NCBI RefSeq assembly: GCF_001941845.1
Contig: NZ_CP018870.1
Location: 682,001 to 746,000 of the forward strand
DNA length: 64,000 bases
DNA from: Streptomyces sp. TN58
GTDB lineage: Bacteria; Actinomycetota; Actinomycetes; Streptomycetales; Streptomycetaceae
Direction: 5' to 3'
Shown here in pieces: positions 60,602 through 64,000 of this stretch (the first letter of the stretch is position 1; the number at the start of each line of letters is the position of its first letter). The translations under genes and the position numbers were made by a program. The notes beneath the pieces are model-generated. The model was given only the letters and a program-made list of their open reading frames with translations. It was not told the DNA's origin and ran no database searches.

Positions 60602-61237
60602 TCAGCGCACGCCCGTGGTACGGAACTGGATGCTGATGCGGGGCCCGACGGCCCGCGCCGACTTCGGCACGGCGTGCTCCATGGTGCGCTGGCAGGAGCC
60701 GCCCATGACGACGAGGTCGCCGTGGCCGAGCGGCAGCCGCAGCAGGGTGGGCCCACCGTCGCGGGGGCGGATGGCGAGGTCGCGCGGGTCGCCGACGGAG
60801 ACGATGGCGACCATGGTGTCCTCGGTGGAGGAACGGCCCGTCCGGTCGCCGTGCCAGGCAACGCTGTCCCGGCCGTCGCGGTACAGGCACAGCCCGGCGG
60901 TGGTGAACGGCTCACCCAGCTCGGCGGCGTAGTGGCCGCCCAGCGCATCGCGGGCCTCCACCAGCGAGGGGTGCGGCAGGGCGTCGCCCTCGCCGTAGAA
61001 GGCGAGCAGCCGGGGCACCTCGACCTCCCGCTCGTACATCTGCCGCCGCTCGGCGCGCCAGGGCACGTCGGCGGCCAGCCGCTCGAACAGCTCGTCCGCC
61101 CCGTGCAGCCACCCGGGCAGGTGGTCGACCCACGCCCCGGCACCGAGCTCGGTCCGCCGCAGCCCGCCGAGAGGGCCGAGACCGATCTCGTCACCCTGGT
61201 CGAAAAGGGAGCCCTGCAGACCCCGGACCGCGTGCAT
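60602..61237 (-). CDS. alkB: AlkB-like 2-oxoglutarate/Fe(II) dioxygenase
   Basis: 211 residues. Fe(II) ligands His129 and Asp131 (WHGD) and His188 (MEHAVPK), with 2-oxoglutarate-binding Arg200/Arg206 (PRISIQFR), all present. CLYRDGRDSVAWHGD is the AlkB nucleotide-recognition region. Repairs 1-methyladenine or 3-methylcytosine in DNA or RNA by oxidative demethylation. No Ada-type regulator next to it. Confidence 0.9.
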   Translation of the reverse strand: MHAVRGLQGSLFDQGDEIGLGPLGGLRRTELGAGAWVDHLPGWLHGADELFERLAADVPWRAERRQMYEREVEVPRLLAFYGEGDALPHPSLVEARDALGGHYAAELGEPFTTAGLCLYRDGRDSVAWHGDRTGRSSTEDTMVAIVSVGDPRDLAIRPRDGGPTLLRLPLGHGDLVVMGGSCQRTMEHAVPKSARAVGPRISIQFRTTGVR

Positions 61238-61299
61238 ACCCCCAGCCTAGCCCCCCAACCGAACATGTGCACGATTTACCAGCGCCCCACGCGCCGCTG

Positions 61300-62586
61300 T
61301 CAGAGCGACGGGCCGCCGGACGGGTGGCGTGGTCTGCGGGTGAGGAGGGTGACGGTGAGAGAGGCCGCGGCGGCGAGGGCGATCGCCGGGCCGGGGCCGA
61401 CGCACTGGGCCAGACCGCCGGCGATCGCCGCGCCCAGCCCCTGCCAAGTCATCCGCCCCGCCGACTCGACCCCCTGGACCTGTCCGCGGATCGCCTGCGG
61501 GGACAGGTCCAGCAGCTGTTCCTGGAGGGGCAGCGTGGCGGCGAACCCGGCACTGGCGAGGAACACCGCGACCGCCAGGACGGGCGCGGGCGGGTGGAGC
61601 GCGAAGAGCACAAAGGGGGCGGCGAGCAGCAGCCGCAGGGTGAGGGCGTGGCGGCGGCGGCTCTCGGCGGTGAGCAGCCGGCCGACGGCCAGGTCGCCGA
61701 GGAGCATGCCGGCGGCTCCGGCGGCCAGGAAGGTCCCGGCGTGGCCGGGGTCGTAGGAGATGAAAAGCGCCTCGCAGCCGACGATCAGGCCGTTGGGGAC
61801 CCACAGGGCCAGCAGCAGGACCCGCCGGCCGGGGTGGGAGAACAGCTCGGCGTTGGCCCGCCATGTCTGCCGCAGGCCCGGTCGGCGGGTGAGCCGGACC
61901 GAGTGCTCGCGGACGGTGGCCGCGACCACGGCCGCGCCGAGGGCGGTCAGGCAGGCGGCGACGGCGAAGACGGTCTGCGGGTTCGTGTGGCGCAGCAGTA
62001 CGGCACCCGTCGCGTAGCCGAGGATCGCCGTACCGCCCGAGGTGATGTTCATCAGGGAGCGGGCCCGCGCGTAGGCGGACACCGGCACGACCTCGGACAG
62101 CAGCCCGAGCCGTGCGCCCGTGCCCAGGGACTGGAAGAAGCCGAGGAGCAGCAGCAGTGCGAAGCGTGCGGCCAGCGGCAGTCCCGGGACGGCCTGCGCG
62201 GCGACCCCGGCCAGCGAGGCGAGTTGGAGCAGGACGACGGTGCGGCGCGGGTGGCCCGCGTCCGCGACCGACATCAGCGTCAGCGCGCCGAGGACGGTCG
62301 CGAAGGTGGCGCCGTACATGCTCACGGCCGTCAGGAAGGGGGAACCGGTCTGTGCGTCGACGAGCGTGCCGAGCGCGAAGCCCGACAGGGTGCCCGCCGC
62401 GACGGTCAGGGTGAAGCCGGCGTACAGCCCGGTGAACTCCCGGCTGCGCAGCAGGCCGAGATAGCCGCCGGGGGTGGGCTGGGGGTCGGGGGCGGGAGTC
62501 GTGTCCGGGCGGGAGTCGTGTCCGGGCCGGGGCGAGGGGTGGTGGGAGGGGCTTGAAGAGGAGTGGGGAGAAGGGTCTGAAGGCAT
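61300..62586 (-). CDS. MFS transporter, probable drug exporter
   Basis: 428 residues from ATG 62586; GGAGG (62601-62597) lies eight or nine bases upstream. A Ser/Pro/His-rich cytoplasmic start (about 1-45), then about 12 hydrophobic helices (for example FTGLYAGFTLTVAAGTLSGFALGTLV, SYDPGHAGTFLAAGAAGMLLGDLAVGR). The overall type is a multidrug-like MFS. A terminator-like hairpin with a U6 tract covers its RBS, and an in-frame extension reaches back to GTG 62637 (VLAFGVRAPCMRPEAFF), so translation may also begin there. Confidence 0.85.
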   Translation of the reverse strand: MPSDPSPHSSSSPSHHPSPRPGHDSRPDTTPAPDPQPTPGGYLGLLRSREFTGLYAGFTLTVAAGTLSGFALGTLVDAQTGSPFLTAVSMYGATFATVLGALTLMSVADAGHPRRTVVLLQLASLAGVAAQAVPGLPLAARFALLLLLGFFQSLGTGARLGLLSEVVPVSAYARARSLMNITSGGTAILGYATGAVLLRHTNPQTVFAVAACLTALGAAVVAATVREHSVRLTRRPGLRQTWRANAELFSHPGRRVLLLALWVPNGLIVGCEALFISYDPGHAGTFLAAGAAGMLLGDLAVGRLLTAESRRRHALTLRLLLAAPFVLFALHPPAPVLAVAVFLASAGFAATLPLQEQLLDLSPQAIRGQVQGVESAGRMTWQGLGAAIAGGLAQCVGPGPAIALAAAASLTVTLLTRRPRHPSGGPSL

Positions 62587-62587
62587 G

Positions 62588-62631
62588 AAAAAAGCCTCCG
62601 GACGCATGCACGGGGCACGCACGCCGAAGGC
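62588..62631 (-). terminator. Attenuator hairpin with U6 tract in front of the MFS start
   Basis: On the minus strand GCCTTCGGCGTGCGTGC (62631-62615) pairs with GCATGCGTCCGGAGGC (62609-62594), 16 pairs with one bulge, followed by TTTTTT (62593-62588) and the ATG at 62586. The GGAGG ribosome site is inside the 3' arm. A -10 box TAGAAT (62648-62643) puts a probable start of transcription at about 62637, so the whole leader folds into this terminator. Confidence 0.8.
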
Positions 62632-62642
62632 CAACACCGGGG

Positions 62643-62648
62643 ATTCTA
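62643..62648 (-). promoter_or_regulatory. Probable -10 box of the MFS gene (TAGAAT)
   Basis: TAGAAT reads on the minus strand at 62648-62643, with a GTG codon about seven bases downstream (62637-62635). If transcription starts there the mRNA is leaderless and begins in frame with the exporter. The -35 box is not clear. Confidence 0.5.
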
Positions 62649-62796
62649 GCAGGAGTCCCGGCCCGCTCGCCGCGCACCGCCGGCCCCACGATCGTAGGGA
62701 GAGCGTATTACCGCAGCGTAACTGTGTGATCAGGGACTCACGGTCTTGGCCGCGCGTCCGCCACGCGGTAGCGTCAACGCGACATAAAGACATAGC

Positions 62797-62907
62797 GACG
62801 ACGGCGAGACGGAAGTCCGGTGAGAATCCGGCATGGTCGCGCCACTGTGTGCTGCGGTGACCTCCCCAGGGGGCCCTCGCGGCGAGTCAGACCCGAGGAC
62901 CGTCGTC
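62797..62907 (+). promoter_or_regulatory. Cobalamin (B12) riboswitch
   Basis: A paired element GACGACGG (62797-62804) / CCGTCGTC (62900-62907) closes the domain. Inside are GGTGAGAATCCGG (62819-62831), GCGCCACTGTG (62839-62849) and GAGTCAGACCC (62884-62894), all conserved B12-riboswitch segments. It lies 45 bases upstream of cbtB and should turn the operon off when cobalamin is abundant. Confidence 0.9.
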
Positions 62908-62952
62908 CTGCACCACCGTATGGGACGCGTTGTTCCCCAAGGAGGTTCCATC

Positions 62953-63180
62953 ATGGCCGAGGCCGTCGCTTCCGCTGCCGTTCACACCCCTGCCGTCTCG
63001 CCGTCGGCTCCGCTGCCCGTGCGCGCCGTCCTGCCCTGGGCGCTCTTCGTCGGTCTTCTGATGCTCGTGGCCCTGTACTTCGTCGGAGCCGAGCAGGGCG
63101 CCACCGCCCTGTTCGCCGGTGAGGGCGTGCACGAGTGGGTGCACGACGGCCGCCACCTGCTCGGCTTCCCCTGCCACTGA
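62953..63180 (+). CDS. cbtB: Cobalt transporter subunit CbtB
   Basis: 75 residues; AGGAGG upstream. One membrane helix (ALFVGLLMLVALYFVGAEQG) and the CbtB-type C-terminus HEWVHDGRHLLGFPCH, His- and Cys-containing for metal binding. Downstream of a cobalamin riboswitch, consistent with cobalt supply for B12 synthesis. Confidence 0.92.
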   Translation: MAEAVASAAVHTPAVSPSAPLPVRAVLPWALFVGLLMLVALYFVGAEQGATALFAGEGVHEWVHDGRHLLGFPCH

Positions 63181-63191
63181 GAGGCCGTGCC

Positions 63192-64000
63192 ATGTACGCC
63201 TCTACTGTCAGGGGTCTGCTGGTCCGCGGCATGCTCGCGGGCCTGATCGCCGGGCTGTTCGCCTTCGCGGTCGCCTATGTGGTGGGTGAGCCTCCGGTTC
63301 GGGGTTCCATCGCCGTGGAGGAGGCGGCCGCCGCCCAGGACGCCGCGAGCGCCCCGAGCGGCCACGCCGGCCACGGGGGTGACGCCGCGTCGGGCGGGGC
63401 CGCCGAGGAGGAGGAAGAACTCGTCAGCCGGCCCGTCCAGTCGACCCTCGGACTGGCCACCGGTGTGCTGGTCTACGGGGTCGCGCTGGGCGGTATCGCC
63501 TCGCTCGCGTTCGCGTTCGCCCTCGGCCGTGTCGGCGGGTTCAGCCCGCGGGCGACGGCCGCGCTCACCGGTGCGGGCGCGTTCGCCCTGGTCTACCTGG
63601 TGCCGTTCCTCAAGTACCCGGCCACCCCGCCGGCGGTCGGCAACCCGGACACCATCGGGCAGCGCACCACGCTGTTCTTCCTGATGATCCTGCTGAGCGT
63701 GCTGCTCGGCGTCGGCGCGATCATCCTCGGGCGGCGGCTGGCACCGCGCCTGGGCAACTGGAACGCGACACTGACGGCGGCCGGCGGCTTCGTCGCCGCC
63801 ACCGCCGTGGCGTTCGTGTTCCTGCCGGACAACAGCGACGCGGTGCAGCCCGGGTTCCCCGCGGCCCTGCTGTGGGAGTTCAGGCTCGCCTCGCTGGCCG
63901 TCCAGCTCGTGCTGTGGGCGGTGTTCGCCGTCGTCTTCGGTGTCCTGGCCCAGCGGCTGCTGGCGTCGCGCACCGACGAAACGGAAGTGACGGCCCGGCA
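63192..64000 (+). CDS. cbtA: Cobalt transporter subunit CbtA (cut by window end)
   Basis: 269 residues to the window edge without a stop, so probably almost complete. Five membrane helices are visible (LLVRGMLAGLIAGLFAFAVAYVVG, GLATGVLVYGVALGGIASLAFAF, ALTGAGAFALVYLVPFLKYP and others), with a His/Gly-rich external loop (SGHAGHGG, about 58-64) and the conserved PFLKYPATPPAVG segment of CbtA. Functions with CbtB. Eleven bases separate the two genes. Confidence 0.9.
   Translation, partial: MYASTVRGLLVRGMLAGLIAGLFAFAVAYVVGEPPVRGSIAVEEAAAAQDAASAPSGHAGHGGDAASGGAAEEEEELVSRPVQSTLGLATGVLVYGVALGGIASLAFAFALGRVGGFSPRATAALTGAGAFALVYLVPFLKYPATPPAVGNPDTIGQRTTLFFLMILLSVLLGVGAIILGRRLAPRLGNWNATLTAAGGFVAATAVAFVFLPDNSDAVQPGFPAALLWEFRLASLAVQLVLWAVFAVVFGVLAQRLLASRTDETEVTAR

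Follow-up and report, generated by a model that had tools for sequence, protein, structure and literature searches.

An MFS exporter gene of Streptomyces sp. TN58 is preceded by a compact 5′ leader that probably keeps the gene off by default, combining a promoter-proximal intrinsic terminator with burial of the Shine-Dalgarno (SD) sequence, and that would be opened by a factor or a condition. The leader lies in the window, as we call the whole stretch of 64,000 nucleotides that was analyzed (contig NZ_CP018870.1, positions 682,001 to 746,000, from a genome of 7.59 Mb), and the coordinates of its features are collected in Table 1. Comparison with the leaders of related exporters confirmed the hairpin as a real, conserved element and was decisive over the folding of the single sequence. 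Termination in vivo, the default-off state and opening in trans are what we infer from these sequences, and an always-on weak attenuator would give the same sequence picture.

Table 1. Features of the exporter leader, in window coordinates
Feature	Positions	Strand	Basis
Extended -10 element TGC TAGAAT	62643..62651	-	Sequence; -10 TAGAAT at 62648-62643
Predicted transcription start zone, including GTG	62635..62637	-	-10 spacing and consensus bases
Stem-loop	62593..62632	-	5′ arm 62632-62615, loop 62614-62610, 3′ arm 62609-62593
SD sequence GGAGG, within the 3′ arm of the hairpin	62595..62599	-	Sequence; arm paired in 78 of 78 leaders
T6 tract, putative terminator U-tract and SD-to-ATG spacer	62588..62593	-	Conserved T-run
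Exporter codons 1-5, nucleotide-level constraint	62572..62586	-	Codon 2 bias
MFS transporter gene, 428 aa	61300..62586	-	PF07690

Anatomy and conservation of the exporter leader

The exporter matches Pfam MFS_1 (PF07690) with 61.6 bits (gathering cut-off 33.4, E 7.9e-17), and its match to the NCBIfam H+ antiporter subfamily TIGR00900 scored far under the cut-off of that family. Divergent from it lie the cobalt transporter genes cbtB and cbtA (PF09489, PF09490), with an AdoCbl riboswitch match upstream of them at 62784-62947 on the + strand (40.5 bits, gathering 50, E 2.6e-05). When the region 61000-64000 was searched with the Rfam 15 covariance models, the leader had no match, and only this sub-gathering riboswitch and two likely chance hits were returned.

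A preliminary description of the window had reported a 16-bp stem with one bulge, followed by a U6 that ends two bases before the exporter ATG. RNAfold gives the same 16 pairs (9 + 7) but a 2×1 internal loop in place of the bulge, and a single base separates T6 from the ATG at 62586-62584. The GGAGG within the 3′ arm and the TAGAAT box were read correctly, and TGC stands in front of the latter. Taken singly, the window hairpin (-24.6 kcal/mol, z -1.64) barely beats chance, with 17 of 200 shuffles folding equally well, and it was absent from the output of a simple terminator scan.

Relatives of the exporter were sought in one genome per species across 84,980 species, and the best 80 of 116 were fetched (best-segment identity 62-83%). 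The module, consisting of the extended -10, the hairpin with its SD, the T-run and the start codon, was found in 78 of these best 80, and the other two lack the 5′ end of the gene (L104 begins within the gene, and L106 aligns only from residue 171). The T-run is at least T5 in 77 of the 78 locus leaders and TTTTCT in the remaining one (L054). Only one of the search peptides reaches into the leader, and it occurs in none of the 80 fetched orthologues, so that retrieval was not biased toward the leader. Hosts of the module include Streptomyces (among them S. virginiae NRRL ISP-5094 and S. lavendulae CCM 3239), Kitasatospora, Streptacidiphilus, Streptantibioticus, Microbispora, Kineococcus and others. 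Among 29 distant homologues (30-53% identity), no T5 run was found at a distance of up to 150 nt from the estimated start; in a few cases, where the match is partial, the start is uncertain.

The distance from the -10 to the G of the opening GCCT is nearly fixed: of 76 parsed leaders, 63 have 10 nt, seven have nine and six have 11 (two leaders were not parsed, and the window itself has 11 nt). In agreement with the start predicted earlier directly before the hairpin, with this spacing the putative start site would precede the stem by three or four bases, leaving no room for a classical antiterminator. The consensus at the start site of 35 non-redundant leaders is G at +1 (of GTTGG), T at +2 and T or C at +3. 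Upstream of -16, these 35 leaders contain no strongly conserved base, and neither a conserved -35 nor an operator was found. Promoters activated by WhiB7/WblC have an AT-rich box by a conserved -35, a feature that the same upstream region of the 35 leaders does not present.

For no gene other than the exporter were relatives found in more than seven of the other 76 loci tested. Upstream bases and neighbouring genes are therefore not conserved where the module is kept, which indicates that the leader travels together with the exporter gene. A recombinase-like ORF, recognized by eye, lies upstream of the exporter at L034, L057 and L058, with relatives in six other loci each, and could bear on movement of the exporter cassette. 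On the coding side, 58 of 76 genes have CCT as codon 2, whereas CCT makes up 7.7% of the Pro codons past codon 6 of these genes, so that a nucleotide-level constraint reaches into the coding sequence; the codons directly behind the ATG tend to end in A or T.

The SD arm is paired in all 78 folded leaders (the window and 77 loci), with a mean core MFE of -22.3 and a mean z of -3.6, and the conserved, terminator-like hairpin over the exporter SD that was first noticed in the window alone recurs in this way across the orthologues. In the alignment A1 of 77 distinct leaders, a C-G pair of the lower stem is exchanged for U-A in four sequences, and one stem position is U-G, U-A and C-G in 49, 21 and 7 sequences, respectively. 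Such compensatory exchanges, like the G-U pairs, speak for an RNA stem, and the frequent U-G (49 of 77 at this pair) disfavours the inverted repeat as a DNA operator. The covariation term of RNAalifold is small (-0.38, with changes on both sides in one of seven pairs) since hardly any variation is seen in the SD arm or in its partner. For 21 distinct exporter arms, taken over their lower eight positions, 155 of 168 pairs (92%) form in register, compared with 30-63% when the arms are slid by one or two positions.

Similar modules before acetyltransferase and aldo/keto reductase genes

The exact 14-mer from the end of the hairpin to the start codon has 45 copies in 43 of 295 Streptomyces genomes, and its reversed control has none. 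Thirty of these loci were examined, of which 28 carry the module and two are unrelated. An exporter follows at 16 loci (including the window), a GNAT-like acetyltransferase gene stands directly behind the module at nine, and a short ORF intervenes before two further GNAT genes and one aldo/keto reductase (AKR) gene. L153 and L145 are labelled GNAT on the basis of PF00583, and L142, which has no Pfam match, by similarity; the AKR label rests on PF00248.

A covariance model built from exporter leaders only (R1) matched 59 of 392 genomes at E 0.01; of its matches, 36 score E ≤1e-10 and 25 are weaker. The exporter (68-100% identical) is encoded at each of the 30 strong matches examined. Of the 25 weaker matches, 20 were examined, and a GNAT or AKR gene follows at 17 of them; at L154 and L157 the module is absent, and L143 was left unclassified. 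A second model, R2, built from 26 GNAT/AKR leaders, matched 89 of the 392 genomes and found exporter leaders as well, the window among them at E 0.008, a cross-finding that is not fully independent, as the R2 members had mostly been picked first by R1 or the 14-mer. Among 40 R2 places examined, 18 lie before GNAT genes, six before AKR genes, and 16 are other, unclear or not the module. Similar hairpins also stand at R2 places before genes that were read by eye as coding for a TetR-like regulator, an ArsR-like regulator and a YadS-like membrane protein (L375, L387 and L372).

A strict hairpin-T-run filter was passed by nine of 20 GNAT homologues and five of 30 AKR homologues (11 and 25 failed), and the module is therefore a feature of some members only. 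With exporter and GNAT/AKR arms combined, 332 of 352 pairs form in register versus 43-65% when slid, a value favoured by the pre-filtering of the 65 GNAT/AKR arms for at least seven of eight paired positions, a filter that the exporter-only control did not have. At the AKR loci L144, L148, L151, L156 and L160, the module is followed by a short ORF, a possible second GC-rich hairpin and a separate SD, and the short ORFs have no obvious common sequence.

In 266 genomes of the class, R1 matched 11 and R2 nine at E 0.001. Outside Streptomyces, the module stands before GNAT-like genes in two other actinomycete genera (L404 and L406), and the other out-of-genus hairpins, which precede mraZ-like, LeuA-like and luciferase-like genes as judged by eye, are probably unrelated. 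At L405, L408 and L412, in small actinobacterial genomes, a hairpin with T6 and CATG or CTTG lies about 140-150 nt before a gene judged by eye to be mraZ-like.

The similar hairpins before exporter, GNAT and AKR genes look like a shared off-switch. A conserved leader before three detoxification-type families, with no match in Rfam 15, would point to a new route of gene activation in Streptomyces and its relatives, and it raises the question of how a 5′-terminal terminator is overcome with neither a leader peptide nor an antiterminator. More tentatively, and with considerable doubt, we consider that the module may represent a new class of actinobacterial RNA switch, in which one promoter-proximal hairpin, with no leader ORF and no antiterminator, would be the target of a shared trans-acting sensor (a protein, a small molecule or the state of the polymerase) and would work through either termination or SD burial, and in which exporter, GNAT and AKR would form one detoxification regulon.

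Proposed termination, SD burial and candidate ways of opening

In the mechanism that we propose, transcription would start a few bases before the GC-rich hairpin, and the hairpin with its U-tract would act as a promoter-proximal intrinsic terminator, most transcripts ending as an RNA of ~45-50 nt. In transcripts that read through, the stem would still bury the SD. For the exporter to be expressed, a factor or condition would have to prevent or open the hairpin or render the polymerase resistant to termination; the candidates are binding of the hairpin by a protein or a small molecule, or altered termination by the polymerase, and not translation of a leader peptide.

A GC-rich stem-loop with a U-tract directly behind it has the structure of an intrinsic terminator, and the T-run follows on the stem immediately, as it does in standalone terminators of the genus. 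Ordinary Streptomyces terminators, some of them located behind tRNA genes, often run on into (G)CATG past the T-run (L199, L201, L207 and L220, among others). Of four tRNA-linked terminators, three continue with T5-6 and then (G)CATG and the fourth with CTATG; at GGST6 sites, CATG follows in 14 of about 150 among the matches listed (counted by eye), five of which are members of the module. CATG behind the T-run was therefore discarded as proof of a start-codon fusion, since it also stands behind standalone terminators. Termination is favoured by five AKR genes in which the hairpin and T6 lie upstream of a short ORF and the enzyme gene has an SD of its own. SD burial is favoured by seven of the 18 R2-found GNAT leaders, which keep hairpin, SD and ATG with no run of four T, so that termination would not be the sole function there; these leaders (L367, L370, L377, L378, L379, L381 and L384) offer a natural comparison for control by translation only. 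The most economical reading, as we infer it from these patterns, is that a single hairpin has two outputs and that both operate at the exporter.

Control by translation alone, with the hairpin hiding the SD, the T-run serving as an unstructured spacer and no termination of transcription, would accommodate the invariable pairing of the SD arm, the GNAT leaders with decayed T-runs and the A- or T-ending codons behind the ATG, which suit a structure-free start site. We regard it as unlikely: a run of at least T5 is kept in 77 of 78 exporter locus leaders of GC-rich genomes, the stem meets the T-run as in standalone terminators, and at the five AKR genes burial of the first SD would be irrelevant to the enzyme unless the ORFs were translationally coupled. 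An attenuator that acts constitutively, which would not switch but would only keep down expression of an exporter that may be harmful, would fit the outcome that a switch partner, an antiterminator and a neighbouring regulator were looked for and none was found. A weaker promoter or SD would presumably be a simpler route to the same effect, however, and a double lock kept across long divergence, with similar modules before other gene families, argues for switching, so that we give constitutive attenuation rather a low probability. Sequence analyses of the leaders and loci returned no inducer, binding factor or antiterminator. With three to four nucleotides before the stem, no mutually exclusive antiterminator structure was found, and an antiterminator formed between the 5′ end and the loop was rejected because such pairing equals shuffles (mean longest pairing 4.14 observed and 4.14 shuffled, in 71 distinct leaders).

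Opening by translation had been the mechanism of the preliminary description, in which ribosomes slowed or stalled on a leaderless in-frame leader would block the terminator. The window does have a GTG (62637-62635) where transcription is predicted to begin; it shares the frame of the exporter, with no stop up to the ATG. For lmrC, the available part of the published report documents attenuation mediated by ribosomes in Streptomyces (PMC8546547). Among the 78 leaders, however, an in-frame ATG, GTG or TTG between the -10 and the first dozen stem bases occurs in 18 and any such start in 51, and 18 of 51 is about the one third expected by chance. The hairpin-to-ATG distances fall in all three frames (35/25/18), a spread that is not an independent test since the sequences are related, and 26 of the 78 leaders have TCGG or TCAG where the window has TTGG. 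Many relatives have no start codon at the site. No conserved translated leader ORF was found in this set, and the comparison across homologous exporters that had been suggested returned the hairpin (78 of 80) but no conserved leader peptide. On the start-codon counts and frame statistics, we reject a leaderless leader peptide; the GTG of the window is most likely in frame by coincidence, stalling on it would not be a conserved mechanism, and the stalled-ribosome explanation as a whole is highly improbable.

An RNA acting in trans, with complementarity to the 5′ arm, could in principle open or close the hairpin in the manner of pT181 antisense RNA or synthetic STAR activators. The anatomy is that of a terminator with an embedded RBS, as the accessible part of the pT181 work describes it (PMC5435934), and the 5′ arm is conserved in sequence. 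Complements of this arm with at most three mismatches were found at 51 places in its own genome, including the opposite strand of the leader itself, versus 40 for the reversed control; these counts are near background, and on them a trans-antisense RNA encoded in the same genome is improbable. Conservation of the arm is already explained by its pairing with the SD, and we see very little chance that such an RNA opens or closes the hairpin.

Relation to known leader systems

The vmlR leader of Bacillus subtilis is dependent on a leader peptide. As far as its published account was available, it combines transcription and translation attenuation (PMC9226507), and our module would resemble it in having both types but differ in that no conserved leader peptide occurs in the exporter leaders. 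The lmrC gene of Streptomyces lincolnensis is described, in the part of the source at hand, as controlled by a ribosome-mediated attenuator with uORFs and alternative folds (PMC8546547); a premature terminator in the leader of a Streptomyces resistance gene is the likeness, whereas a conserved uORF and an alternative fold were not found in the exporter leaders. Term-seq of Streptomyces clavuligerus yielded 96 novel, unexplained premature units in 5′ leaders, and the accessible text counts premature ends only when they lie at least 70 bp downstream of the start site (PMC8269248), so that a terminator at about +45 would escape this count. A survey of ncRNAs in 50 Streptomyces genomes presents terminator-stem candidates and SD-containing motifs (PMC11109978), which share with our module a single strong hairpin, then at least five U, and an SD inside the structure; unlike those motifs, the exporter module is not described in the survey text available. 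In the open-licence literature, no description of the module was found at the level of titles and abstract openings.

Among the closest known systems is also the repC attenuator of pT181 with its engineered dual transcription/translation derivatives, in which, according to the part of the source available, AGGAG lies in the 3′ half of the terminator (PMC5435934). In both systems, an SD-type sequence occupies the 3′ half of a terminator hairpin right before the start codon. In pT181 an upstream antiterminator segment and an antisense RNA are described, whereas here the leader begins at the hairpin, judging from the predicted start, and the scan of its own genome gave no signal clearly above background. 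By this analogy, the exporter leader matches a pT181-like terminator/RBS hairpin and would be a variant of it that works without an antiterminator.
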